From Myxococcales bacterium (GTDB lineage: Bacteria; Myxococcota_A; Polyangia; Polyangiales; JAFGIB01), in assembly GCA_028817905.1 (NCBI GenBank), contig JAPPOR010000688.1:1-33939 (forward strand): a stretch of 33,939 nucleotides of DNA. The letters are read 5' to 3'. The notes under the pieces were generated by a model. That model worked only from the letters and a program-made list of their open reading frames with translations. It did no database searches and had not been told where the DNA came from. This document shows, one piece after another, positions 3,533 through 33,930 of the stretch. The position numbers and the translations under genes were made by a program. Numbering within the stretch: position 1 is the stretch's first letter; every line of letters starts with the position of its first letter.

Positions 3533-4042
3533 GTGCACGATGTGGAGAATCCCGGGGAACTGTCGCCCCATACGATTGTCGCGCGGGTGGAAGATCGCCC
3601 CGGCGTGCTGTCTCAGATCGTCGCCCGGTGGCAGGACAAGGGCTACAACATCCGGAGTTTGGCGGTCGGCGCGTCCGAGCAGGCCGGCCATTCGCGCATG
3701 ACGTTTGTCGTCGAGGCCACCGCCGACGCTGAGGAGCTGTTGCAGGACCTGCGACGGATGAAAGAGGTCGACGAGATTCGAGACATCTCCGGAAACGAGT
3801 TCGTGAGCCGCGAGCTGGCTCTGATTCGCGTGGCCGGCAAGAAGGAGATGCGCAAACGCCTGATGGAGGTCGTCGACATCTTCAAAGCGCGCATCCTCGA
3901 CGTCGCACCCGACTCGATGATTATCGAGGTCACCGGCCACGAGCAGAAGATCAATTCCCTCGTGCGCTTGTTGGCCGACTACGACGTGGTCGAGTTGGTC
4001 CGCACCGGCCGCGTCTCCATGCTGCGCGGAGCACTCTCCTAG
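3533..4042 (+). CDS. ilvN: Acetolactate synthase, small (regulatory) subunit
   Basis: Regulatory subunit of acetolactate synthase, the first step of branched-chain amino acid synthesis; in the family it binds valine and stimulates the catalytic subunit. 169 residues, within the usual 160-185. The N-terminal ACT domain is clear (HTIVARVEDRPGVLSQIV, then DKGYNIRSLAVG and SRMTFVVEA), followed by the typical C-terminal domain (FVSRELALIRV, ILDVAPDSMIIEVTG, ending VELVRTGRVSMLRG). The frame is open upstream to 3329, but homology begins near residue 13. GTG at 3533 is the most reasonable start, with GTG at 3542 as the alternative; neither has a good ribosome site. No ilvB precedes it and no ilvC follows, which is unusual. 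The upstream neighbour is divergent and the downstream one is DUF2855. Confidence 0.93.
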   Translation: MHDVENPGELSPHTIVARVEDRPGVLSQIVARWQDKGYNIRSLAVGASEQAGHSRMTFVVEATADAEELLQDLRRMKEVDEIRDISGNEFVSRELALIRVAGKKEMRKRLMEVVDIFKARILDVAPDSMIIEVTGHEQKINSLVRLLADYDVVELVRTGRVSMLRGALS

Positions 4043-4080
4043 CCCGGATTGTCGGCCGCAGAGTTCATGACGATTCGGGA
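4040..4080. repeat. Possible rearranged fragment of the intergenic repeat family
   Basis: TAGCCCGGATTG, which overlaps the ilvN stop codon, is identical to one end of the repeat at 32799-32896. It is followed 6 bases later by GCAGAGTTCATGA, which matches the same repeat's internal segment but in the opposite orientation. The order is therefore inverted relative to the complete copies. It could be a scrambled remnant or chance. Confidence 0.3.
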
Positions 4081-5567: not shown

Positions 5568-8237
5568 GTGTCCAAGACTCCCAGGCATATGACGCACTCC
5601 ACCGTGACCCAACCATGCTCCAGAGCATTCGCGAGCCCACAGAAGCTCCGGTTGATGCTCTATCTCGGCGCTTTGTTTCCATCTGTCGTGTCGGCGCAGA
5701 TGCCACCAAGCGAGCCTGCATCCGTAGGGGAGGCACCCACGCCCCCGAAGGACGCGCTTGAGGAGGGAGCGGCGCCATTGGAGGACGCGCCGGTTGAGGA
5801 GATCGTCGTCGTGGGCTCCCGGGTGAGCGCACGTACCGATACCGAAACACCCTCGCCGGTGGATGTGCTGAGTACCGAGGATCTGCGGAACACCGGTGCG
5901 ATCGAGCTGGGGAAGGCTCTGCGAACGCTTGCGCCATCGTTCAATTTCTCCTCCACGACGGTGAGCGATGGCACCGATCTGATCCGTCCTGCCACCCTGC
6001 GCGGACTGGGCCCCGATCAGGTGCTGGTGTTGGTCAACGGCAAGCGGCGCCATCAGATGGCCCTCGTCAACGTACAGGAGACCATCGGGAAAGGTTCCGC
6101 AGGCTATGACCTGAACGCGATCCCTATCTCCGCCATCCAGCGCGTCGAGATTCTTCGTGATGGCGCAGCCGCACAATACGGGTCCGATGCGATCGCTGGG
6201 GTGATCAACATTGTGCTGAAGGACAACAGTGGCCTGCAGGTTGCGACCCAGGCCGGGCGATACTACGAGAGCAACAACAACGTTTATGGTTCACTCGACA
6301 CGTTTGCTGCGAGCGCCCACGGTGGCTTGTCCCTCGGGCGCGGGGGGCTCAATGTAAGCCTTGAATATCGCGAGCGGGGCCTGACCGATCGTGCCGGTCT
6401 GGCCACTCTCAGCGAGACAAATGGCGAGCTGATCGGAAACTGGTATGACGAGAACGGAAACGCGGTCAAGCGCCTGCGCATCGGTGACGCGCAGGCGCGC
6501 ACCCTGAGTTTGTTTTACAACGGTGAATACTCGTTCAGCGACGCGGCTGAGCTGTATTCATTTGGAGGCGTGTCGCGGAGGACCGGCGAGTCGTCGGGTT
6601 TCTTTCGGGGTCCGGGTCACCCAAGGGTCCCCGGCGAGCTGTATCCGCAGGGCTTCCTTCCCACGCTGCTCACTCGCGCAGATGACATCTCCGCGGTTGC
6701 GGGATTGCGTATCGAGCTCGGGGAAGGCTGGAAGCTCGATGCCAGCGTGGGGTGGGGTCGCAGCGTATTCAACTTTGGTTCAGAGAACTCCGTGAACGTT
6801 AGCTGGTTTTATGAACCCGATGCCAATGGCAATCCCTTGCTGCAGAGCCCTACAGAAGCTGACGACGGTTCGCTACTTTCAGACCAGCTGACCGCGAACC
6901 TGGATCTGACCGCAGCCTACTACGGGATCTTGAGCTCCCCGCTGCTCTTCGCTGCCGGCGCGGCGGTGCGTGTAGACGGGTACGAAATTGAGCAGGGGGA
7001 CCCTGTTTCCTGGTCCTATGGTCGTCGCAACGACCCGTCGATAGCCATCCAAAACACGAGCTTGAGGGAACCCGCACCCGCCGAAGCCGGCATTCAGGGG
7101 TTTCCCGGGTTCGGTCCAAGCACCGTCGTGTCGGAGCGGCGACCAAGCGTGGCGGCATATATCGATGGTGAGACGAACCTACTCGAGGGCTGGATGGTTG
7201 GACTGGCGGGGCGTTTCGAGTCTGTCGATTTCAAGGATCACCATGGAGTGGGTAAGTTCGCCACGCGCGTGGACCCGGCGGACTTCTTCTCCCTGCGCGG
7301 CACGGTGTCCAACGGGTTTCGCGCTCCCGGTGTCCATCAGCTGTACTACAGCCAGACGCTCACCAACTTGGTCGATGGTCAGCTCGTGGACACCGGCACG
7401 GTCGCGAATGATAGTCCCGTCGCGCAGGCCTTCGGTATCAAGCCACTTGTGCCCGAGACGTCCTACGGCTTCAGTGTCGGTGCCGTATTCAAGCCAGATG
7501 CGTGGCTTGACAAGCCAACTCGAGCGGCCTCCGTGACCGTGGATGTCTTTCTGTTGAAGATCCGTGACCGGATTGTCCTTTCGGAATCCATCGACGGCGC
7601 TGTGCCTGAAGGTGGGGCCGACAATGCCCGGCGCATGCAGGCGCGTCAGCTTCTCGCTGCCAACCGGCTCGGTGCCGCCCAGTTCTTTACCAACGCGGTC
7701 GACACCAGCACGTTGGGTTGCGACATCGTGGGGACGTGGGACGCGGCCTTCGGCCGTTTCTTTGGACTGAAGCTGTCCGCAGCCCTGAGTTTTGTCCAGA
7801 CGCAGGTGGACGATGCGCACTCCCAATCGTCGCTAGTTGAGGATGAAGAACTCTTCGGTGCGACCCAGCGCTTGCGGCTGGAACGCGGCCAGCCGCGCAT
7901 GAAATCCATTCTCGCGGGCGACGTTCGCGCGGGTGACTTCATGCTGCGGTTGTCCAGCACGTACTTTGGCCCCGTAAGTGGCCAGGCGTTCACGGGTGTA
8001 CGCAAGGACTGGAGCGGCAAGTGGATCACGGATGCGTCTCTCACCTACCGCCCCCAGTTTGCGCCCGGCTTCGCTTTGACTGTGGGTGGCAACAACCTCT
8101 TTGACGTCTATCCGGACAAGTGGGAAAGCGATGCCGGTGGCGTCTTCTATGGAGCCGGCTTCACGTATGGCTGGGAGACGCTACCCTTTGGCATCAACGG
8201 GGGCTACTACTACGCGTCGCTCGCTTACACGTACTAG
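5568..8237 (+). CDS. TonB-dependent outer membrane receptor
   Basis: Outer membrane gated beta-barrel of 889 residues that imports a ligand using TonB/ExbBD energy; the substrate (siderophore, vitamin, sugar or peptide) cannot be told. The GTG start gives MSKTPRHMTHS; an in-frame ATG at 5589 is an equally good start, and both keep the signal peptide that ends near VVSAQ. Then come a Pro/Glu-rich spacer, a TonB box-like EEIVVVGSR, and a plug domain (VDVLSTEDLRNTGAIELGKA, then ATLRGLGPDQVLVLVNGKRR and VERIEILRDGAAAQYGS-like residues at about 200-215). The remainder is the barrel, with RGTVSNGFRAPGVHQLYYSQ in the usual mid-barrel motif and a carboxy-terminal aromatic strand ending in YTY, as needed for BAM recognition. 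It stands alone, with no TonB, ExbB or SusD gene nearby. The stop overlaps the convergent gene by four bases. Confidence 0.95.
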   Translation: MSKTPRHMTHSTVTQPCSRAFASPQKLRLMLYLGALFPSVVSAQMPPSEPASVGEAPTPPKDALEEGAAPLEDAPVEEIVVVGSRVSARTDTETPSPVDVLSTEDLRNTGAIELGKALRTLAPSFNFSSTTVSDGTDLIRPATLRGLGPDQVLVLVNGKRRHQMALVNVQETIGKGSAGYDLNAIPISAIQRVEILRDGAAAQYGSDAIAGVINIVLKDNSGLQVATQAGRYYESNNNVYGSLDTFAASAHGGLSLGRGGLNVSLEYRERGLTDRAGLATLSETNGELIGNWYDENGNAVKRLRIGDAQARTLSLFYNGEYSFSDAAELYSFGGVSRRTGESSGFFRGPGHPRVPGELYPQGFLPTLLTRADDISAVAGLRIELGEGWKLDASVGWGRSVFNFGSENSVNVSWFYEPDANGNPLLQSPTEADDGSLLSDQLTANLDLTAAYYGILSSPLLFAAGAAVRVDGYEIEQGDPVSWSYGRRNDPSIAIQNTSLREPAPAEAGIQGFPGFGPSTVVSERRPSVAAYIDGETNLLEGWMVGLAGRFESVDFKDHHGVGKFATRVDPADFFSLRGTVSNGFRAPGVHQLYYSQTLTNLVDGQLVDTGTVANDSPVAQAFGIKPLVPETSYGFSVGAVFKPDAWLDKPTRAASVTVDVFLLKIRDRIVLSESIDGAVPEGGADNARRMQARQLLAANRLGAAQFFTNAVDTSTLGCDIVGTWDAAFGRFFGLKLSAALSFVQTQVDDAHSQSSLVEDEELFGATQRLRLERGQPRMKSILAGDVRAGDFMLRLSSTYFGPVSGQAFTGVRKDWSGKWITDASLTYRPQFAPGFALTVGGNNLFDVYPDKWESDAGGVFYGAGFTYGWETLPFGINGGYYYASLAYTY

Positions 8238-9121
8238 CGGCGTGGGCAACCCGAGACGCCAAAGCCCATGGTGTAGCGAGCGTTAAGTTCGACTAGTGGG
8301 TGGAAGCGTGGGCGCCCGGTGCGGGGATCGCGGTAGCGGAAGGCATCGGTCCCGAACGGGCCGAAGTAGCCAGCGGTTCGAAGGGCCTCGGCCACGGTCT
8401 CCGCGGTGTGTAGCAGCGCGTCGCGTTCGGGCCGGCTGAGGTCGGGGCCGGCCGCCTGTCGACTCCCGCGCCAGATTCCGTGAGTGTCGCAGGTCTGAAG
8501 CGTGGGGGCTCCGAGCCGCAGCTGCCCATCCTGTCCGAGATAGCCGTGCTGGGCGAAGTCTGCGAGCCGTTCAACCCATGGCTCAACCACGAGGCCGAGA
8601 CCTTGGGACAGCGACGCGACGCACCAGCGGCGATCGCTGTCGTCAAGCCGGCTTCTTACCCGACGCTGCCCTCGGCCGGCATATCCGAGGGCGCGTTTGA
8701 GCACGAAGGAGCCAGCGGGTCCCGGCGTCGCCCGTTGCAGGTGCGTTTCGAGCGCGTCCATGTCGTGCAGGTACCGAGATGGCCAGGGGCCGGCATCCAC
8801 GGTCAGCGCAAACGCGCGGTCGTTGACCTGTCGCAGCACTTGCCATGGCGGCGCGTTGGGAGGGATCGCGCCTACAGCGCGTAGGCGAGCGAGGGCCCGG
8901 GGGGTTGGGCACCACGCTGCTCCGCGCTGACCTTGCAGTGCGTCCTGTCCGGTATCGGGGGGCATGTCGGAATCGACAACGATGTCGGTGGGCCCTACGA
9001 GCCCCGGGAGGCTGCGGGCGAGAGACCGCATGCGCGCCATCATGGCGTGGCCGGGTTGGTAGGGGCCCGGCGCCGCCCGCAGCTCGTCTTCAGCATCCAG
9101 ATTGAGGACCCAGACAGTCAC
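8234..9121 (-). CDS. ATP-grasp domain protein coupled to a DUF455 gene
   Basis: 295-residue protein with ATP-grasp features, likely an ATP-dependent carboxylate-amine or carboxylate-thiol ligase of unknown substrate. ATP lysine candidate K142 lies in FVLKRALGYAGRGQRRV (glycine-rich loop follows). E180 in VVEPWVERL fits the adenine hinge. D259 in GPFGTDAFRY and E278/N280 in PLVELNARYTMGF fit the magnesium site. The start is GTG at 9121, whose last bases overlap the TGA of the upstream DUF455 gene (GTGA), so the two are translationally coupled. The longer frame back to 9253 lies inside that gene and is not used. No signal peptide is seen. Fold assignment is from the spacing of conserved residues; a structure search would be needed to fix the subfamily. 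It ends four bases into the TonB receptor, tail to tail. Confidence 0.72.
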   Translation of the reverse strand: MTVWVLNLDAEDELRAAPGPYQPGHAMMARMRSLARSLPGLVGPTDIVVDSDMPPDTGQDALQGQRGAAWCPTPRALARLRAVGAIPPNAPPWQVLRQVNDRAFALTVDAGPWPSRYLHDMDALETHLQRATPGPAGSFVLKRALGYAGRGQRRVRSRLDDSDRRWCVASLSQGLGLVVEPWVERLADFAQHGYLGQDGQLRLGAPTLQTCDTHGIWRGSRQAAGPDLSRPERDALLHTAETVAEALRTAGYFGPFGTDAFRYRDPRTGRPRFHPLVELNARYTMGFGVSGCPRR

Positions 9122-10055: not shown

Positions 10056-11198
10056 ATGGCTCGGCGACATCACGTGATCCTCATATCCGGTTTTTTTGGC
10101 TTCGCGCGCATCGGCGACCTTCGGTACTTTCTTGGTGTCGAAGAGCTGCTTGGGGAGCTTCTGGGGGCTCGTGGCGTAGACGCATGCGTGCACGAGGTGG
10201 TGACCTTGCCGACTGCGTCGATTCGCCATCGCGCAGCGCGGGTCCTAGAGGTCATTGAGCAAGTCGTTGAAGATGACGGCCCGGTGCATCTCATCGGGCA
10301 TTCGACCGGAGGCCTGGACGCCCGCCTTGCCGTGGTGCCGACCGCCTCGCTTCCGACCGCGTGTGACAGTGCGCGTGCCTATGCGCGGGTCGAGAGTCTG
10401 GTGACGATCTCGGCGCCCCATTTCGGAACCCCACTCGCCAGCGTCTACAGTAGCGCCATGGGCAAGCCCTTGCTGAGGCTGATCTCGGTCGCGACGGTAT
10501 ACATTCTGCGCTATGGCAGGTTGCCACTCGGCGCGGCGCTGAAGCTCGGTGGCATCTTTGCCAAGGTCGACGATGTGCTCGGCTTCGACAACACCGTGGT
10601 GGACCAGCTCTACAACGAGCTGCTCGCCGACTTCAATGATGAGCGGCGCGCTGCGGTTATGCAGTTTCTGTCGGAGGTTCAGGACGACCAGTCGCTGGTG
10701 TTTCAGTTGACCCCCTCGGCGCTCGACCTGTTCAACGCAACGTCTGCCGATCCGAGCGAGATTCGCTATGCCAGTGTGGTCTCGCGCGCCGAGCAGCCAA
10801 AGGTTGGGCGGGCATTGCAGCATGGTGCTGACCCCTATGCCCAATCCATGTACCTGGTCTACTCGGGACTCTGGTGGCTCGCGGCCCGTTCACGTCAGGA
10901 ACACATGCCGGAACTGACAGCGGACCAGCGCGCGACTCTCACGGACGCCTACGGTGTCTTGCCTGCCGCTTCCGATAGTGACGGCATCGTTCCGACCCTT
11001 TCTCAGGTTTGGGGGCCCGTGATCCATGCTACCCGAGGCGACCACCTCGATGTGGTGGGTCACTATGGCCAAACGCGCAAGGTCGATGGCATCTACGCTG
11101 ACTGGCTACCCACCGCGAGCGGATACGATGACACCGCATTCGAGTCCCTGTGGAGTGCGGTCGCCGACTTCATCGCCGCCGGCCCGGGGGTTGGCTAG
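10056..11198 (+). CDS. Lipase/esterase-like alpha/beta hydrolase
   Basis: 380-residue alpha/beta hydrolase, predicted to cleave an ester (lipid or similar). After a short N-terminus, VILISGFFGFARIG supplies the strand and oxyanion region, and VHLIGHSTGGLDARL carries the nucleophile S83 in GHSTGG, typical of triacylglycerol lipases and PGAP1-like esterases. SAPHFGTPLASVYSS follows, as in lipases acting near membranes. The acid and base are probably the Asp in SDSDGIVPTLSQ and the His in LDVVGHYGQTRKVDG near the C-terminus. No signal peptide is evident, so it is cytoplasmic or peripheral unless export is non-classical. It is divergent from the DUF455 pair, with 44 bases between starts. Its TAG stop abuts the stop of the convergent PEGA gene within CTAGCTAG. 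Confidence 0.88.
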   Translation: MARRHHVILISGFFGFARIGDLRYFLGVEELLGELLGARGVDACVHEVVTLPTASIRHRAARVLEVIEQVVEDDGPVHLIGHSTGGLDARLAVVPTASLPTACDSARAYARVESLVTISAPHFGTPLASVYSSAMGKPLLRLISVATVYILRYGRLPLGAALKLGGIFAKVDDVLGFDNTVVDQLYNELLADFNDERRAAVMQFLSEVQDDQSLVFQLTPSALDLFNATSADPSEIRYASVVSRAEQPKVGRALQHGADPYAQSMYLVYSGLWWLAARSRQEHMPELTADQRATLTDAYGVLPAASDSDGIVPTLSQVWGPVIHATRGDHLDVVGHYGQTRKVDGIYADWLPTASGYDDTAFESLWSAVADFIAAGPGVG

Positions 11199-12392
11199 CT
11201 AGAGAGAGCCCGTTAGAACGATGCTGCCGAGACCGATCTTGGCGCGTAAACCGCTTGTGTCCGTCGTCCCTTGCGGGGAACTCGGACCTTCCATCCGCTC
11301 CGAAGGGCCGGTGGCGATCAGGGCTATGACGGCGCTCGCGGCACCTGCTGCGGTAGCGATGAAACCCACGTCTGCGACCGTTGCAAAGGTCCTGCCGTCA
11401 TCCCGGGTGGACATGAGCGACGGGTCCGTGCACCGTCCCCTGGGACAGCTCTGGTCTAGTTCGCTTTCCTTGTCGGCTGCCAGGGCGCCGAAGATCGCTC
11501 CCATGATCAGTCCTGCGCCGGCGACTCCGATGCCAACGTACGTTAGGGTCGGGATGCCCTCGTCGATGATGGGGGGTGGGGCTCGCACCGGCCCTGGGCC
11601 TTTGGCAACTGTCGGCTGTGGCTGTAGCTGCAGCTCGATACGGACATCGCGCCCGCTGCGGGCGGTCAGCTTGCGTCGCGCGGGCAGATAGCCGTCGGCG
11701 CTGGCGACGAATTCGTGCTCACCCGGGTCGAGCAGGATCCTACCCTCGGCGTCAGGCGCAAGCGGGGCTCCGTTTACCGTGACGTTGGCGTCGGCAGGCT
11801 CGACTGCCACGTGGACCCGAACCGTGAAGGCCAAGGCGCGGGTCAAGACGTCGTTGACCGACTTGCGCTGCTCTTCCGTAAGGGGTCGCCGTTGTTCCGC
11901 CAGGGCCTGTTGCAGCGCCCGTGTGGCCTGCACATAGGACCGGTTTTCGAAGGCGGACAGGCCCAGGCCTCGCAGGGCGCGGGCGTTCGGATAGACCTCG
12001 TTGGCCTTGCGGAAGAGTGTAACGGCTTCGCCCCAGTGGGCCAGCTCGAACTCGCTCACCGCTTGCTGGATGAGGGTCACGTACGTTTCCGGCAGTCCTT
12101 CGAGCGCACCCATGTCGGTGTCGTGCTGTTCGGAAGGGATCGCAGTTGCTGGGGCCTTCGTGCTCCCAGCATTTGTGTTTCCTGTCTCGTTGGCGGCGCT
12201 CTGGGACCGGGTGCCGGCCTCCGCTCCCTGCCCATGTGCGGTCGTACCCGTCAGCGCCAACACCGCCAACGCCAACACCGCCAACGCCAACACCGCCAAC
12301 ACGAAGGCCGCCACGCCGGGCAGCGGAGCGCCGATCGTGGGAGACCCCTTCAGGCTCGCAAGCCGTGACCCCGTACGCGTGCTCGAGAGCAT
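11199..12392 (-). CDS. TPR and PEGA domain membrane protein
   Basis: 397-residue envelope protein. A long n-region and a hydrophobic stretch built of LAVLA repeats (about 30-46) end in TTAHGQG, a signal peptide or N-terminal anchor. A tetratricopeptide-like part follows (VSEFELAHWGEAVTLFRKAN, ARALRGLGLSAFENRSYVQA, about 105-165). Next is a PEGA domain (VRVHVAVEPADANVTVNGAP, then LDPGEHEFVASADGYLPARR, about 195-255), a surface-layer-like beta domain common in Myxococcota. Two hydrophobic segments close the protein (TLTYVGIGVAGAGLIMGAIF and FIATAAGAASAVIALIA), so the C-terminus is membrane embedded. It is the last gene of the co-directional block, 60 bases after the FG-GAP gene, and may be co-transcribed. 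Function is not known; proteins like this usually scaffold or sense in the envelope. Confidence 0.85.
   Translation of the reverse strand: MLSSTRTGSRLASLKGSPTIGAPLPGVAAFVLAVLALAVLALAVLALTGTTAHGQGAEAGTRSQSAANETGNTNAGSTKAPATAIPSEQHDTDMGALEGLPETYVTLIQQAVSEFELAHWGEAVTLFRKANEVYPNARALRGLGLSAFENRSYVQATRALQQALAEQRRPLTEEQRKSVNDVLTRALAFTVRVHVAVEPADANVTVNGAPLAPDAEGRILLDPGEHEFVASADGYLPARRKLTARSGRDVRIELQLQPQPTVAKGPGPVRAPPPIIDEGIPTLTYVGIGVAGAGLIMGAIFGALAADKESELDQSCPRGRCTDPSLMSTRDDGRTFATVADVGFIATAAGAASAVIALIATGPSERMEGPSSPQGTTDTSGLRAKIGLGSIVLTGSL
12256..12300 (-). repeat. Three perfect 15-base tandem repeats inside a signal peptide
   Basis: The plus-strand unit GCCAACACCGCCAAC is repeated three times without mismatch. 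On the coding strand it specifies LAVLA units in the hydrophobic core of the PEGA protein's signal sequence. The repeat keeps the reading frame, so copy-number change would lengthen or shorten the hydrophobic core by five residues. Confidence 0.95.
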
Positions 12393-24390: not shown

Positions 24391-24468
24391 GCACGACGGA
24401 CTGTGTGCTCTGGTCCACCGGAGCTGGCGAGCTAGCCTGTTCTTCCACGTCACACCGCCTTCGACGCC

Positions 24469-24567
24469 CTAGAAAATTACGGAGAGGATTCCCGGCCGTC
24501 GCCGAAAAGCCGTGTGAAGCCGAATCCCTGCGCGATCCGGCGCAGAGTTCACGAATGAACCAGGCTA
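24469..24567 (+). repeat. Intergenic structured repeat, copy A
   Basis: 99 bases matching copy B (32799-32896, read on the minus strand) along nearly the whole length. Shared blocks include CTAGAAAAT, TCGCCGAAAAGCCGTGTGAA followed by GCCGAATCCC, GCGATCCG, CGCAGAGTTCA and a terminal GGCTA. A hairpin TGCGC-GATCCG-GCGCA lies at about 24530-24545. It is located between the cytochrome c gene and the beta-barrel gene, in the direction of transcription of both. Its last 13 bases include the first possible ATG of the beta-barrel gene. Confidence 0.88.
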
Positions 24568-25613
24568 GACTCGCGCCGATGGGCCTGTCTCCCATGCGCT
24601 GCTCGCCAGGTGCTGTGACGTTCCTTTCGTGCGTGCTGCTGGTTTGCGCGAGACTCTCCGGGGCCTCTGCCCAGCCGGTGCCAGACGCGGCCCCAGAGGA
24701 TTCCCGTGACCTGGCGCTGATCGAAACCGAGACCCGCGGTGTCGATCCGGTGGTGGGGCGCTTTTTCAATCAGCGTATCAAACGCTTTGCTGCCGCCCTT
24801 GGGTACCGCGTCCGAGCGCCGCAGGACGCCCGGGAGGCGATGACGCGCTTCGGGTTGGGGTATCCGCCGTCGCCATCTGAGCTTTGGACATTGATGCACG
24901 CTCTGTCGGCAAAACGGGTCGTGTTTGCGACCGTTTGGATTTCAGGGGGGCAATACGCATTTCGGCTCCAGGTCGGCAGCGCTGATGGCGCGGGCCCATA
25001 CTTCAGTGAGGCGACAGTCACTCCCGCTGACCTGCTATCGCGTCTTGAGGAGACGTTGACCGAAGTACTGCCACCACCGGGGATGCGCTTTGAGGTTCCT
25101 GGTGCCAGTGCCGCGCTAGCGCAGGATGCCGCGGAAGGTGCGCTCTACTTTGACACGGCGGGGCCGCCGCCAGTGCCCGTCCCGAGGCATCGGCCATGGC
25201 GACTGGCCATGCACGGCGACACTGCGTTCGGCTTTTCGTCCGATGGATTCCGCAATCACACGCTAGGGGCTCGCCTGGACTACCGCTTTGACCGGGAACT
25301 GGCCCTTGGCGCCTACGTTGGCTATGCGAACCTTGCGGGCCGTGATGGACGGGTTGCCAGCCTTTTGGCCTATCTCCAGTTCGAAGATCGCGTTCCCATC
25401 AATCGGCGCGGCACGCTTCATGTGCCGCTGCGTTTGGGTCTCGGGTACCTTGCCAAGAACGGGCCGGTCATGCGTCTGGCGGCTGGGTTCGGGTTTAACA
25501 TGGGGGACCAAGCGGAGGCCACGTTGGAACTGTTGGCGCCCACGTTTTGGCTGACTCAGGAAACGTTGCTGTTCTCTCTCGACCTGGGCGTTGAGGTCGG
25601 CTTCAAGCTCTGA
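24555..25613 (+). CDS. Outer membrane beta-barrel-like protein, unknown function
   Basis: 352 residues from this ATG. The N-terminus has a signal peptide (AVTFLSCVLLVCARLSGASA, cut near AQPVPD). A soluble region of about 190 residues follows (RFFNQRIKRFAAALGYRVRA and AKRVVFATVWISGGQYAFRL). It resembles domains that compute a per-gene sum in other Myxococcota outer membrane proteins, but I recognise no family. The last 150 residues alternate polar and hydrophobic positions with short turns (WRLAMHGDTAFGFSSDGFRN, LGARLDYRFDRELALGAYVG, and the final LDLGVEVGFKL), typical of an eight-stranded barrel. ATG 24555 lies inside repeat copy A, so ATG 24579 or 24594 may be the true start; all three keep the signal. 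The stop overlaps the convergent tag gene by 11 bases. Confidence 0.8.
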   Translation: MNQARLAPMGLSPMRCSPGAVTFLSCVLLVCARLSGASAQPVPDAAPEDSRDLALIETETRGVDPVVGRFFNQRIKRFAAALGYRVRAPQDAREAMTRFGLGYPPSPSELWTLMHALSAKRVVFATVWISGGQYAFRLQVGSADGAGPYFSEATVTPADLLSRLEETLTEVLPPPGMRFEVPGASAALAQDAAEGALYFDTAGPPPVPVPRHRPWRLAMHGDTAFGFSSDGFRNHTLGARLDYRFDRELALGAYVGYANLAGRDGRVASLLAYLQFEDRVPINRRGTLHVPLRLGLGYLAKNGPVMRLAAGFGFNMGDQAEATLELLAPTFWLTQETLLFSLDLGVEVGFKL

Positions 25614-29387: not shown

Positions 29388-30473
29388 ATGAAACTCGAAG
29401 ACCTGGGCTGGGCGGAGCCCTTTGTATCCGCTCTCGCTGAACTACCGATCGCTTCACCAACGCCTGGGCGCGTCACATCTGCCCATCGCAACCACTACAC
29501 ACTCCTGACGGTTCGGGCGGGCCAGCCCGTGGACATCTTGGTGCGGCTCGGGGGCAGGCTCCGCCACCTGGTCGACGATGCTTTCGACCTGCCGACCGTT
29601 GGCGATTGGGTGGCGGCCCGGATACCGGACGACGGCGAAGGCGTGATCGAGGCGGTGCTGCCACGTCGCAGTGCGCTTGTGCGCAGCCGTCCTGCTGGAG
29701 GCGGGCAGCCGCAACTGATCGCGGCCAACCTCGACTCGGTTTTCGTGGTCTGCTCCCTCAACGAGGACTTCAGCCCGCGGCGACTCGAGCGCTATCTGAG
29801 CCTTGTTTGGGAAAGTGGCGCCCGGCCCGTGATACTGCTGAGCAAGCTCGACCTCTGTCGAGACCTTCCCCATCATCTAGACCGTACCCGAGAGGTGGCG
29901 GTGGGGGTCCCGGTCCATGCCCTGAGCAGCTTGACGGCTGAAGGGGTGGACGAGCTCACGCCGTATCTCGCACCGGGCCAAGCGGTAGCACTTGTGGGGT
30001 CATCGGGTGTTGGCAAGTCCACGCTTGTCAACGCGTTGCTTGGCGACAAACGTGTGGAGACCGGCGCCATCCGCACGTCCGACGGGCGCGGTCGCCACAC
30101 GACTTCTCGACGCGAGCTACATGTGCTGCCGTCGGGAGCGCTCCTGATCGACACGCCCGGTATGCGCGAGGTGGGGCTCTGGAGTGACAGTGACCAGGGG
30201 TTGCGTTCGGCCTTTGATGATGTCCAAGCGCTCGCCGACGCTTGCCGTTTTCACGACTGCGGTCATCAGGGCGAGCCCGGCTGCGAAATCGCAGCCGCGG
30301 TCGAGCGCGGTCAGCTGACGGAAGCCCGCTTTCGGAGCTTTCAGAAACTGCAGCGCGAGCTTGCGTTCCTTCACCGCCAGCAGGACGATCGCGCCCGTCG
30401 CGAACACGATCAGCGCATGAAGCGAGTCTGGAAGGTCCGTTCGCGGGCCTTTCGCCAGAACCCGAAGCGTTAG
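29388..30473 (+). CDS. rsgA: Ribosome small subunit-dependent GTPase A
   Basis: 361-residue circularly permuted GTPase that helps mature the 30S subunit late in assembly. An OB-fold N-terminal domain covers about 25-100. The G motifs occur in permuted order: LSKLDLC (G4, about 152), then GSSGVGKST (G1, from about 204), RGRHTTSRRE (G2) and DTPGMREVGLW (G3). The C-terminal zinc finger has C286, C291, H293 and C299 (CRFHDCGHQGEPGC). All features of an active enzyme are present. The tail is long and basic. The start ATG has GGAG six bases ahead. A strong hairpin begins on the stop codon. Confidence 0.97.
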   Translation: MKLEDLGWAEPFVSALAELPIASPTPGRVTSAHRNHYTLLTVRAGQPVDILVRLGGRLRHLVDDAFDLPTVGDWVAARIPDDGEGVIEAVLPRRSALVRSRPAGGGQPQLIAANLDSVFVVCSLNEDFSPRRLERYLSLVWESGARPVILLSKLDLCRDLPHHLDRTREVAVGVPVHALSSLTAEGVDELTPYLAPGQAVALVGSSGVGKSTLVNALLGDKRVETGAIRTSDGRGRHTTSRRELHVLPSGALLIDTPGMREVGLWSDSDQGLRSAFDDVQALADACRFHDCGHQGEPGCEIAAAVERGQLTEARFRSFQKLQRELAFLHRQQDDRARREHDQRMKRVWKVRSRAFRQNPKR

Positions 30474-30497
30474 AAATGCCGCGAAAGCGGCATTTCT
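30472..30497. terminator. Hairpin terminator overlapping the rsgA stop codon
   Basis: AGAAATGCCGC, GAAA loop, GCGGCATTTCT: a perfect 11-base-pair stem with a GNRA tetraloop, starting at the second base of the rsgA TAG. It is near symmetrical, so it could act on both strands. The 3' side ends TTTCT and lacks a long T-run, so the call is intrinsic terminator or mRNA 3' protector. Confidence 0.7.
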
Positions 30498-30511
30498 GAG
30501 TGCGAACTAGC

Positions 30512-30602
30512 TAGCCGGGATTCATGAACTAGCATCGCCTTGCTGGCTCCTTGACTTCACACGAGCTTTCGGCGCCGTACCATTCTCGCGAGGAAATCTC
30601 TA
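30512..30602 (-). repeat. Intergenic structured repeat, copy C (divergent)
   Basis: 91 bases on the minus strand, more diverged than copies A and B but collinear. It begins TAGAGATTTCC at the stop codon of the preceding gene, contains CGCCGAAAGCTCGTGTGAAG and ends AGTTCATGAATCCCGGCTA. Where A and B have TGCGC/GCGCA and TGCG/CGCA stems, C has AGCA-AGGCGA-TGCT, so pairing is kept with different bases. Between rsgA and the unknown gene, tail to tail. Confidence 0.72.
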
Positions 30603-31946
30603 ACAACCGCAGCCGTGGAACTCGCGGGACCAGGATGCGAGGCGTTCCTCACCTCTGATCACGGACACGTCGCCGAAGGCGCCCTCCTCGATGAGGTAGT
30701 CGAGCTCAGTACCGTCTCCACCGAGCACGAGCAGCACGCGGTCAGGCACGGCCCGGCTGGACACGGTAATCGCCTCTGGGCGGCCAGCGCCTTCGGCGGG
30801 CACCCGAAAGACCGCCCACATGCCCCAGTCTGGGCCGCCGCATGGAATCCAAGGAATGGTCACCGAAACGAGAGCACTCTGTTCTCCGTCAAAGGAGAAT
30901 GCCTGCACCACCACCTCCCGTTCTTGCTCGTCCCAGCGAGGCGCGCCGGGCAACCTATCGGTGTCTGCATGCCCCATCACATGTGCGTACTCGGCTTGCG
31001 TCTCCAGGTAGGCTGGCAGGGAGCGAAATGCATGCAGGACCTCGGCGCGTCGCGGGACAGCCGTCAAGGGGCGCGCGATCCGTGCGGGTGTCCGGGACGC
31101 TTGCCGAACATAGAGCGGCTCACCGAGGCACGCTCGCCGGTCGTCGAACCGCAGCCTCGCGGTGACAGTTCGTGTCGTGGCTGCTTCCCAAATGGCCGCG
31201 GCCCGGGCGGCTCCGCGCAGCGGGTGCAGTTGCTCTTCCGGGTCCTCCGAGTGGCCATTCCAGCGCAGTTCCTCTTCGTAATCCGGGACCAGGTCCACGC
31301 GATAGTGAAAGGAACGGACGGTGGCGTCGCAGCGTGCTCCTTGATCGGTCACCACCTCTACTCTTCGAGCGCGCCAGGGGTGTGCGTAGGGCGGGAGATC
31401 GTGGTTCGAGATCGCAGCGTGCACGATATGATCATTGCGATCGAACAGCCGCGGCCGGGCGTGAAGCAGGTCGCTGTCTTCCGTGACACCGACAACGGCG
31501 TGCGCACCGCCACCACGGGCCATCAGAGCGAAGCCTGTCGTCCAGCCCCCGTGGGCGGGCGTGGCCGGCGGTTTGGTGGCTTGCTGACGGCTCGCTGCGA
31601 TATCGGCCACCTTCTCGTGTCCCGTTTCTGCCACCGGCACGGTTTGCACCGGGGGCTCCACCGTGCGCCCGCCAGATCGAGCACTCCCAGTCGCTTGAGT
31701 GGACGAAGCTCCCTGGCTCGGCGGCCTTGAACGGCTACCCTGACCGGCTGGCGTGGCCTGTTCTACCTGCTCGGTGTGGGTGGAGCCGCCGTCATCGCGT
31801 CCGCCGTCATCGCGTCCACCTGAAACGCCCAACGGGAGGCTGCACGCGCACATCACGCTCAAACAAACCGCTCGCTCGATGGCCTTTCGGGCGAGATGAA
31901 GGCGCGCTCCAAGCCGGGTGAAAGCCGCGCTTCGGGGCGACTTCAT
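30600..31946 (-). CDS. Unknown exported protein, probable lipoprotein
   Basis: 448 residues from ATG 31946; the frame is open to 32123 but only this start gives a signal (IERAVCLSVMCACSLPLGVS, lipobox-like CAC). A low-complexity linker follows (GGRDDGGRDDGG, then Pro/Thr/Ser-rich to about residue 130). After it is a folded region with no family I recognise (FALMARGGGAHAVVGVTEDS, WRARRVEVVTDQGARCDATV, WIPCGGPDWGMWAVFRVPAE). Repeated beta-strand segments suggest a beta-sandwich. The C-terminus is FHGCGC, and its cysteines may pair. The stop codon TAG is the first element of repeat copy C. Probably surface or periplasmic; role unknown. Confidence 0.7.
   Translation of the reverse strand: MKSPRSAAFTRLGARLHLARKAIERAVCLSVMCACSLPLGVSGGRDDGGRDDGGSTHTEQVEQATPAGQGSRSRPPSQGASSTQATGSARSGGRTVEPPVQTVPVAETGHEKVADIAASRQQATKPPATPAHGGWTTGFALMARGGGAHAVVGVTEDSDLLHARPRLFDRNDHIVHAAISNHDLPPYAHPWRARRVEVVTDQGARCDATVRSFHYRVDLVPDYEEELRWNGHSEDPEEQLHPLRGAARAAAIWEAATTRTVTARLRFDDRRACLGEPLYVRQASRTPARIARPLTAVPRRAEVLHAFRSLPAYLETQAEYAHVMGHADTDRLPGAPRWDEQEREVVVQAFSFDGEQSALVSVTIPWIPCGGPDWGMWAVFRVPAEGAGRPEAITVSSRAVPDRVLLVLGGDGTELDYLIEEGAFGDVSVIRGEERLASWSREFHGCGC
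31786..31815 (-). repeat. Two perfect 15-base tandem repeats in a linker
   Basis: The plus-strand unit CCGCCGTCATCGCGT occurs twice in a row without mismatch. It codes GGRDD units just after the signal peptide of the unknown protein at 30600-31946. Confidence 0.93.
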
Positions 31947-32119
31947 CGCGCTGGAGGTACGGATACGGGGACTTGCGATGCTGATCATGCACGACGTCTG
32001 AGCAATGGTCGTGCCACGCTCAACGCCGTCGTCCAAGTGGTTGCCAGCGCAGGGTATTTTGCCCAGGGCGACGGGCCCCGCCCGCGCCTTCCCGACAGGG
32101 ATCAAAGACGCAATTCGTA

Positions 32120-32131
32120 GCATCGCGATGC
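32120..32131. other. Perfect 12-base palindrome
   Basis: GCATCGCGATGC is a perfect palindrome between the FxsA gene and the unknown gene's start (about 170 bases upstream of the latter). It may be an operator, but there is no second copy in the window that I could find. Confidence 0.3.
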
Positions 32132-32221
32132 GAAATCAATTGCGGCCGCCCCTTCCAGGTCGCGGAATCTTCTTCGGGGCAACGCGCCCCCGCCCCGGCC
32201 CAGCAAGTCGCGGGCTTGGCG

Positions 32222-32788
32222 CTACTTGTCGACGACGGTGGCTTCGACGTCGATGACCTCCCGATACTCGGGTACGCCGTCGGGTCTGCGCCGGTAGTGG
32301 CCTTCGTTTGCTGCTCGCCTGTCGATGACTTCCGGGGCTGCGCTGACCCCTGCGCTGACCCCTGCGCTGACCCCTGCGCTGACCCCTGCGCTGACCCAGG
32401 TGTTCCGAACCACGTGGACCTGTCCACGCGCGATGGCGGTCTCCAGGCGCCGCGTGATCAATCGGGCGATCAGACGGCGTGATGTTGGCACGAGTAGCGA
32501 CAGGCCCAGGGCGTCGGTCATGACCCCAGGGGTCACAAGCAGCACGCCCCCAACCAGAACAAGCAGGCCGCTGATCACCCCGTCCTCCGGCACGCGCCCC
32601 GCCGCCAGCGCCGTTTGCCACTGGCCAAACACCCGTAAACCTTCAGCTTTGGCGAGCATTGCGCCGACCGCGCCGGTCGTCAGTACGAGAGCAATGGTCG
32701 CGACTAGCCCGAGCCACTCCGACATCCGGAAGAGCAGAAAGAACTCGAACAGCGGCACGGCCGTGAACAGCAGGAGCAACTTGCCCAT
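32222..32788 (-). CDS. fxsA: FxsA family membrane protein
   Basis: 188-residue inner membrane protein of the FxsA family. E. coli FxsA, when overproduced, relieves F plasmid exclusion of phage T7; its normal role is not known. Three hydrophobic segments are seen: LLLLFTAVPLFEFFLLFRM (about 4-22), LGLVATIALVLTTGAVGAML, and GVISGLLVLVGGVLLVTPGV. The family motif LVTPGVMTDALGLSLLVP follows, then a basic cytoplasmic tail. The tail carries five VSAG units encoded by a 12-base tandem repeat and ends YREVIDVEATVVDK. The start ATG is the only one that begins the first hydrophobic segment. Repeat copy B starts just ahead. Confidence 0.93.
   Translation of the reverse strand: MGKLLLLFTAVPLFEFFLLFRMSEWLGLVATIALVLTTGAVGAMLAKAEGLRVFGQWQTALAAGRVPEDGVISGLLVLVGGVLLVTPGVMTDALGLSLLVPTSRRLIARLITRRLETAIARGQVHVVRNTWVSAGVSAGVSAGVSAGVSAAPEVIDRRAANEGHYRRRPDGVPEYREVIDVEATVVDK
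32339..32397 (-). repeat. 12-base tandem repeat in the fxsA tail
   Basis: The plus-strand unit TGCGCTGACCCC is repeated four full times plus 11 of 12 bases of a fifth, without mismatch. It codes the VSAG repeat of the cytoplasmic tail. The absence of any silent differences suggests recent expansion. Confidence 0.95.
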
Positions 32789-32798
32789 GCGGTCAGCT

Positions 32799-32896
32799 TA
32801 GCCCGGATTGCTCATGAACTCTGCGTCGGATCGCATGGGGATTCGGCTTCACACGGCTTTTCGGCGACCGACAGGAATACTCTCCGCATTTTCTAG
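32799..32896 (-). repeat. Intergenic structured repeat, copy B
   Basis: 98 bases between the fxsA start and the PNPOx-GNAT stop, reading in the same direction as both genes. It begins CTAGAAAATGCGGAGAG, where TAG is the stop codon of the PNPOx-GNAT gene, and ends CAATCCGGGCTA. It matches copy A closely. It has the hairpin TGCG-ATCCGA-CGCA. The terminal TAGCCCGGATTGCTCATGAA (read on the plus strand) resembles a transposon end, but no inverted copy is at the other side. Confidence 0.88.
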
Positions 32897-33930
32897 ACCC
32901 TATCCACTGGGCCTTGGGGTCTGGCACGGCGCATCTCGGTGTAGCGGTGGGCGAAAGGTCGAAAGCCGAATGGGGCATAGAAACTGTGGGCATCGCGCGT
33001 GACGAGGTTGATCTTGGTGCATTCTCGGAGTCGCGGGTGGTCGAGCATCAGCGCCAGCATTGCTTTGCCGACGCCCCGTCCACGGTGCGCTGGGTGCACG
33101 GCCACGTCGTAGATGTGCGCGTGTTTGCTGCCGTCCGAGATCGCCCGGGAGGTTGCGACGAGCTGCCCCTGTGCATTGCGAGCGCCGACCCAAGCGGTTG
33201 CACCCTTGTGAGCGGCCCGGATCCGTGTGTCTTCGGTGTCGTCGTTCCAGTACGCATCCCGCACCAGGGCCACGGCGGCGTCCAGGTCGTCTGGTCCCGG
33301 ATGCACGCACAGCTGGATCCCCGGCGGACCCTGTAGGAACGCTGGAGTGGGCTTGCCGGGGTGCTCGGCGCGCACCCATTCCAGTGCTTGCAGGTCGCCC
33401 GGCCGGCCGCGGCGCCAGAGTCCACCGAGCACCTTGTCGATCTGCTGGGTGGGGCGGTTTTGGCCCAGCTTGCGTTTGCCCACCATGGTTGTCGGGCGCA
33501 TGCGTACGATGACAATCGCATCGACCGCCTTGCGGTAGAGGGCATGATCGGCGGCGATCGGTGTATAGCCACCCTCGGCCTGAAAACGTGCCATCAGCGC
33601 GGCCAGCGCCCGCGCTTTTTCGGGCGGGTCATCGACGCGCTCGAGCGTTCCCTGGGCCTGGCAGCTGACATAGTACGTCGTTGCCGGGCACGCGCGTTGG
33701 GGGTCGATGAAGTAGCTCGGGATCTCCGCGATGGTTTGCTCACACTGCATGACCGCGGGTCGTCCCAGGCAAGCGAGCTTCTCGCCGCTGTCGCCTCCGT
33801 GAAAGGTGATCGCACCGTCGATCACGACTCCGTGGACCGTGCGCAGCACGGGTTCCCCGGACGGCAACGTGCTGGCAAACCGCACCACCGGCGCCTGTCT
33901 CCATGTGTCCCAAACCTCTTCCGTCGTCAT
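32893..33930 (-). CDS. PNPOx-like flavin split-barrel fused to GNAT acetyltransferase
   Basis: 345 residues in two domains. The N-terminal 165 residues look like a pyridoxamine 5'-phosphate oxidase-related FMN split barrel (VVRFASTLPSGEPVLRTVHG, TYYVSCQAQGTLERVDD, VIVRMRPTTMVGKRKLGQNR). After a linker, the C-terminal 140 residues are a GNAT acetyltransferase with the acetyl-CoA loop VAVHPAHRGRGVGKAMLALM and INLVTRDAHSFYAPFGFRPF. The barrel could bind flavin or heme, or be a catalytically idle sensor. The acyl acceptor is unknown. The start is 33930, near the right window edge but complete. The stop is the first bases of repeat copy B. Both domain calls are from motifs. Confidence 0.85.
   Translation of the reverse strand: MTTEEVWDTWRQAPVVRFASTLPSGEPVLRTVHGVVIDGAITFHGGDSGEKLACLGRPAVMQCEQTIAEIPSYFIDPQRACPATTYYVSCQAQGTLERVDDPPEKARALAALMARFQAEGGYTPIAADHALYRKAVDAIVIVRMRPTTMVGKRKLGQNRPTQQIDKVLGGLWRRGRPGDLQALEWVRAEHPGKPTPAFLQGPPGIQLCVHPGPDDLDAAVALVRDAYWNDDTEDTRIRAAHKGATAWVGARNAQGQLVATSRAISDGSKHAHIYDVAVHPAHRGRGVGKAMLALMLDHPRLRECTKINLVTRDAHSFYAPFGFRPFAHRYTEMRRARPQGPVDRV

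Follow-up and report, generated by a model that had tools for sequence, protein, structure and literature searches.

Copies of a short repeat lie close to the stop codons of genes in a 33,939-nt stretch of a Myxococcales draft genome (hereafter the window), which raises the question of how such a repeat comes to be placed there, and whether it has any part in ending translation. The first-pass annotation of this DNA had reported that two copies, here termed B and C, begin exactly at the stop codon of the preceding gene. The features that bear on this question are as follows.

32893–33930, minus strand: PNPOx (Pyridox_ox_2)–GNAT fusion gene, with its stop at 32893–32895
32802–32896, minus strand: copy C, a one-armed version of the putative MITE described below, comprising the right arm (profile positions 66–160)
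32893–32896, minus strand: CTAG at which copy C has its inner end and which also contains the TAG stop (32893–32895) of the PNPOx–GNAT gene
32798–32801, no strand assigned: TTAG (CTAA on the minus strand), the outer target-site copy of C, one base off the CTAG of the stop
30600–32123, minus strand: gene without a Pfam match, with a TAG stop in a TTAG context, some 20 nt from copy B
~30515–30582, plus strand: copy B, a diverged left arm of the putative MITE
24432–24568, plus strand: copy A, the putative MITE without ~28 bp of its left end, not at a stop
11195–11202, no strand assigned: tandem CTAGCTAG without an element, at the two halves of which two convergent genes end
4043–4079, no strand assigned: degenerate mini-copy with both ends and almost no middle, which the profile search did not list

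Both TAG codons named in the first-pass annotation, at 32893–32895 and 30600–30602, are present as it gave them, but only one of the two copies begins where it was said to. For copy C, which has its inverted-repeat end at 32802 and the internal CTAG of the element (32893–32896) as its inner end, homology to the family does indeed reach the stop, and the inner 30 nt match the family better than 5000 of 5000 shuffles. For copy B, on the other hand, homology ends at ~30582, which leaves approximately 20 nt between it and the stop codon at 30600–30602, and the 30 nt adjoining this TAG match the family no better than shuffles (p = 0.31). Copy B scores 59 as a left arm versus 42 as a right arm, and is preceded by a tandem CTAGCTAG at 30507–30514. 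The right end of copy A is followed by CTAG at 24565–24568. The mini-copy at 4043–4079, which was missed by the first-pass annotation, is located directly after CTAG 4039–4042, the TAG stop of a gene ending at 4042.

With regard to the neighbouring genes, matches to the PNPOx–GNAT protein occur in 64 of the 144 genomes searched, its own included, and in 22 other genomes at E <1e-70. These 22 orthologues, a comparison that the first-pass annotation had itself recommended, end 0 to 39 residues beyond the aligned part, and the window gene ends within this range. The gene at 30600–32123 has weak matches only, in four other genomes. Elsewhere in the window, a perfect 11-bp hairpin, AGAAATGCCGC-GAAA-GCGGCATTTCT, spans 30471–30497 and starts within the TAG that ends the RsgA gene; a short tandem repeat of about 12 bp, GCTGACCCCTGC, resides at 32336–32396 within a gene of the FxsA family (minus strand); and a single palindromic CTAG at 8234–8237 serves as the stop of two convergent genes (5655–8237, plus strand, and 8234–9121, minus strand).

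Structure, target and mobility of the repeat

Full copies of the repeat are 160 bp in length and palindromic, with two inverted arms, the ends CCCGGATTATTCATGAA, 17-bp terminal inverted repeats and no transposase gene inside; they occur as palindromic pairs of ends flanked by CTAG, and one subtype of them has a further CTAG inside the element, at position 66. The end itself is present 357 times (≤2 mismatches) in the genome from which the window derives (hereafter its own genome, an 11.1-Mb draft of 1110 contigs), with none for a reversed-pattern control. The repeat is very probably a high-copy non-autonomous DNA transposon, or MITE, most likely of the IS1380 type. Amongst 14 distinct 160-bp copies, the two arms co-vary within a copy at positions 8/153 and 19/142, with T–A, G–C and C–G pairings at both, A–T in addition at 19/142, and few exceptions; this may reflect template-switch correction or pairing within a hairpin.

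Comparison of 73 distinct element pairs, from its own genome and from loci of other genomes, reveals flanks that are mostly CTAG. In four of the 73 pairs the same tetramer other than CTAG appears on both sides, namely CTAA (L064 and L158), TTAA (L084) and CTAT (L172), whilst in some pairs, for example L013 and L035, the two flanks differ. Because these four pairs carry equal tetramers on either side, the sequences point to a target-site duplication of 4 bp, YTAR or near it and nearly always CTAG, which lies within the 4–5 bp expected of an IS1380-derived MITE. The dinucleotide TA had been considered as the duplicated target, and was dropped after the pairs with matching CTAA, TTAA and CTAT.

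Beyond its own genome, the distribution of the end is scattered. A 21-nt end (≤1 mismatch) is found in five of 193 genomes searched, its own included, and the exact 22-nt end in at least 80 stretches of MAGs from many phyla, which, among the matches listed, include Planctomycetota, Acidobacteriota, Nitrospira, Gammaproteobacteria, Myxococcota and others. Such a pattern across phyla would suit a mobile element. The signs of transposition in the sequence are indirect, comprising the many copies, the target duplications and the candidate footprints described below.

As to which transposase moves the repeat, the IS1380 transposase domain (PF13701) is not matched anywhere in the 1110 contigs of the draft, from which a collapsed copy may be missing. 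It does match in 16 of 33 genomes (5 of 14 and 11 of 19), these being its own and 32 reached via loci carrying the end. An examination of IS1380 ends, for which 42 loci were fetched and 27 entered, yielded 28 testable ends, all in other genomes; CCCGGATTATTCATGAA is present with ≤3 mismatches, in the right place and orientation, at six of these, with no match at the other 22. None of 168 controls matched with ≤3 mismatches, nor any with fewer than 5. In L212 and L208 the end precedes the matched start of the transposase by approximately 130 bp, and in L193 it lies behind the C-terminal part of the transposase; it adjoins TTAA in L195 and CTAG in L177, with CTAG or TTAA also beside that of L212. 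A complete IS1380 element with exactly CCCGGATTATTCATGAA at both sides was not seen among the tested loci, the complete IS1380 of L175 having CTAG alongside but different ends, CCTGGATTTCTCACCG. End pairs in the complete Acidobacteriota genome G193 were likewise checked for an insertion sequence, and a 2-kb pair there holds no recognisable transposase. Since CCCGGATTATTCATGAA-like ends bound some PF13701 transposases in other genomes, an IS1380-family transposase is, as far as sequence comparison allows, the best assignment for the mover, with its partner in this genome presumed only.

The repeat resembles the IS1380 family (PF13701, DDE_Tnp_1_4) and its derived MITEs in that some of their ends are like CCCGGATTATTCATGAA (≤3 mismatches) with CTAG/TTAA-type flanks, and differs from IS1380 elements in having no transposase gene. 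A MITE of the IS5 type, which targets YTAR, would be alike in its target, but DDE_Tnp_1 (PF01609), the IS5-type transposase domain, has no match in the own genome. Both IS5 and IS711 are described, in PMC5493358 and PMC2266754, as targeting YTAR, with CTAG the commonest site for IS5; IS711 is reported to duplicate only TA, in contrast to the 4 bp of this repeat. Within the IS1380 family, IS1247 is listed with a 5-bp duplication in PMC3281130, versus 4 bp here. MITEPsy1 of Pseudomonas syringae, a 100-nt MITE with 18-nt inverted ends, duplicates CTAG or YTAA, although its ends, GGAAGGTCTGAAAAAGCC, differ from those of this repeat, and its source is given as ISPsy2 (PMC3189936). The eukaryotic piggyBac elements, for which IS1380 forms the outgroup in phylogenetic trees, duplicate a 4-bp TTAA, and their ends often begin CCC (PMC10813416). 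TTAA is a YTAR sequence, as is the target of this repeat.

Placement at stop codons

The position of copies relative to genes was assessed in a sample of its own genome comprising 803,005 bp, merged from 110 stretches, many of which were chosen for holding copies, so that the copy sample leans towards high-scoring, first-listed examples. This sample contains 147 distinct copies (E ≤1e-3), 33 of which were counted as full copies with >300 bp of flank on both sides; genes were called with a simple codon-usage script, not a standard gene finder. In 17 of these 33 the duplicated CTAG terminates a called gene, in 16 it is intergenic, and in none does it lie within a gene. The background, 846 CTAG sites free of the element and away from copies and stretch ends, divides into 483 coding, 263 intergenic and 100 stops. 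The share at stops is thus far higher for full copies than for CTAG sites as a whole (p = 3e-8), and the placement is real and not random; the first-pass annotation had held that coincidence would follow if most copies lay away from stops, and 17 of the 33 lie at one. When only non-coding CTAG sites are considered the excess becomes modest (17/33 versus 100/363, Fisher p = 0.008), and aiming at stops beyond the effects of selection is weakly supported. Coding insertions are lacking, with 0/33 versus 483/846 (p = 7e-13).

A frame test that makes no use of gene calls gives a similar picture. At least 150 open codons lie in frame with the TAG at 42 of 139 ends, with 9 and 10 for the other two frames, whereas the background for its own genome is 14.1, 21.6 and 10.5 %. 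For MAGs from other phyla that carry this end, the corresponding counts are 41, 24 and 8 of 110, on a background of 20.9, 18.3 and 11.5 %.

The 17 stop-sited full copies are abutted by 19 genes, which are mutually distinct except for one weakly similar pair. Ten abutting proteins, nine of them encoded by these 19 genes and the tenth adjoining a different copy (L041), were scanned with Pfam, and seven retain all or nearly all of their last domain: Acyl-CoA_dh_1 (ACAD, 150/150), Ala_racemase_C (127/127), EndoU (128/129), a luciferase-like domain (313/314), PSD2 (74/74), ParB_C (47/50) and 4HBT_3C (139/140). The remaining three are uninformative: one has a DnaJ match below the cut-off, one is a glycosyltransferase, and the third matches YdjM only within its N-terminal half. 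What the analysis shows directly is the element family with its ends and its duplicated target, its enrichment at stops, its absence from genes and, for most of the stops scanned, proteins with complete ends.

These observations can be accounted for by the target itself. As YTAR contains TAR (TAG or TAA), the stop codon of a gene could itself serve as the site; an insertion at this point would duplicate the stop and leave the protein unchanged, and so be tolerated, whilst insertions at coding CTAG sites would be lost. Many copies sit at gene ends because the target CTAG contains TAG, and their placement follows from the landing site and not from a special role in ending translation. Selection rather than aiming probably causes most of the bias towards stops. 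Copy C may be read in the same terms, as the remnant of an insertion at the PNPOx–GNAT stop, with the stop-proximal (left) arm deleted between the CTAG of the stop and the internal CTAG of the element; the remnant would start at the stop because the deletion ran from one CTAG to the other. We infer this route from a single locus, where the flanking tetramers are unequal (CTAG versus CTAA), together with a similar one-armed copy on C365 (L017) that starts within a few bases of the internal CTAG.

Two mechanisms had been offered in the first-pass annotation, and whilst the link to stops on which both were founded is real, and the note in that sense partly supported, neither fits best. The proposal that the element supplies the stop, by inserting near the 3′ end of a gene and truncating it with its own TAG, appears improbable. 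It draws some encouragement from C365 (L017), where an open frame apparently ends in the internal CTAG of the element after element-like bases, and from two copies in which a gene reads 16 nt into the left arm. The TAG, however, sits within the pre-existing 4-bp target that insertion duplicates, and was thus in frame beforehand, and neither the complete last domains of seven of the ten scanned proteins nor the normal end of the PNPOx–GNAT protein speaks of truncation. Somewhat less probable still is a 3′ untranslated RNA element, be it a terminator or an mRNA stabiliser, kept at gene ends for its function. Full copies are long palindromes, and copy A folds better than its shuffled counterparts (z −4.08); copies C and B do not (z −0.09 and −0.51), neither B nor C has a terminator-like site (a stable hairpin with a run of T behind it, downstream of the stop), and Rfam returns no match above gathering score within the window. 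Moreover, 16 of the 33 full copies lie off stops, and the stop-sited copies look younger, with 15 of 23 high-scoring copies at stops versus two of 10 low-scoring ones (Mann–Whitney p = 0.010), which suits recent insertion over long retention.

Of the two readings that remain, both very unlikely, one takes the repeats to be REP/BIME-type palindromes moved by a RAYT (Y1) transposase. High copy number, palindromic form and extragenic position would all agree with this, as would the one Y1_Tnp (PF01797) match in its own genome, which is located at the end of contig C60 and, at 22.6 bits, falls below the curated cut-off; a 160-bp element with 17-bp terminal inverted repeats, a 4-bp duplication and ends that match those of some IS1380 elements would not. 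The other reading is that CTAG simply occurs at many stops of a TAG-rich genome, so that the association is pure coincidence. Targets are certainly plentiful, since TAG ends 269 of 535 called genes in its own sample, whereas the figures for two relatives belonging to the same family are 18 of 123 and 13 of 96, yet stops make up only 100 of the 846 element-free CTAG sites as opposed to 17 of the 33 full copies. Coincidence is refuted by the frame test and by the p-values of these counts, unless the gene calls are badly biased.

The repeat is thus a MITE of an ordinary kind with an uncommon habit, in that around half of its full copies reside on native stops. An open-licence literature search found no report of MITE insertion at stop codons; a 2024 review of MITEs (PMC10969869) has no mention of IS1380, stop codon or CTAG, and the accessible text of PMC3189936 makes none of stop-codon placement for MITEPsy1. 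A related case is QMITE2 of Coxiella, a MITE at the 3′ end of enhC that touches the stop, although there, according to PMC5896051, insertion changes the C terminus, whereas for the present repeat the stop is part of the target that is duplicated. When a target of four letters includes a stop, a mobile element gains a gene-safe niche without a dedicated targeting factor, and one that is measurable by simple counting. The case also cautions against taking every repeat next to a stop codon for a termination signal.

CTAG arrays and stop codon usage

No tandem tetramer is more over-represented in the sample from its own genome than CTAGCTAG, which occurs 46 times versus 1.55 expected once copies are masked, and which is absent from the samples of two relatives. 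Similarly, CTAGCTAGCTAG occurs 87 times in its own genome, and zero or one times in each of 37 relatives. Arrays of two or more CTAG units away from copies number 29, the example at 11195–11202 included, and lie at stops in 23 cases, in intergenic regions in five and in coding sequence in one. Single CTAGs (n = 870), by comparison, are distributed over 85 stops, 284 intergenic and 501 coding positions (p = 2e-17 versus arrays). These arrays look like footprints that departed elements may have left, and the tandem CTAGCTAG at 11195–11202 is a candidate excision footprint. Each visit would add one CTAG, which would be tolerated after a stop and not within a reading frame. If the ladders are indeed excision footprints, they constitute a record of past visits from which excision could be studied by sequence alone. 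The piggyBac elements, in contrast to such candidate CTAG footprints, can excise without leaving one (PMC12732532). Loci in other genomes that carry these ends contain no CTAGCTAG (0.08 expected), so that ladders do not generally accompany this family of ends.

The density of CTAG is 1.42 per kb in the sample from its own genome versus 0.41 and 0.43 in the two relatives of the same family. It is conceivable, if doubtful, that host stops are the regular landing site of this transposon, with harmless visits and departures building (CTAG)n ladders, and that TAG usage and CTAG richness have co-evolved with it; were this true, the choice of stop codon in this lineage would be tied to the targeting of the transposon. 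That elements are the whole cause of the TAG-rich stops is not supported, as the share of TAG is still 0.45 at the 294 stops followed by unique sequence.

Other repeat families in this genome also start directly at CTAG, namely CCCGCATCCATCACC (39 ends), CGACCTTGTCCAGACG (18), CGACCTTGAGTCAGCG (15, of which eight are at stops) and GTCGCGCTGGCGCGC (10).
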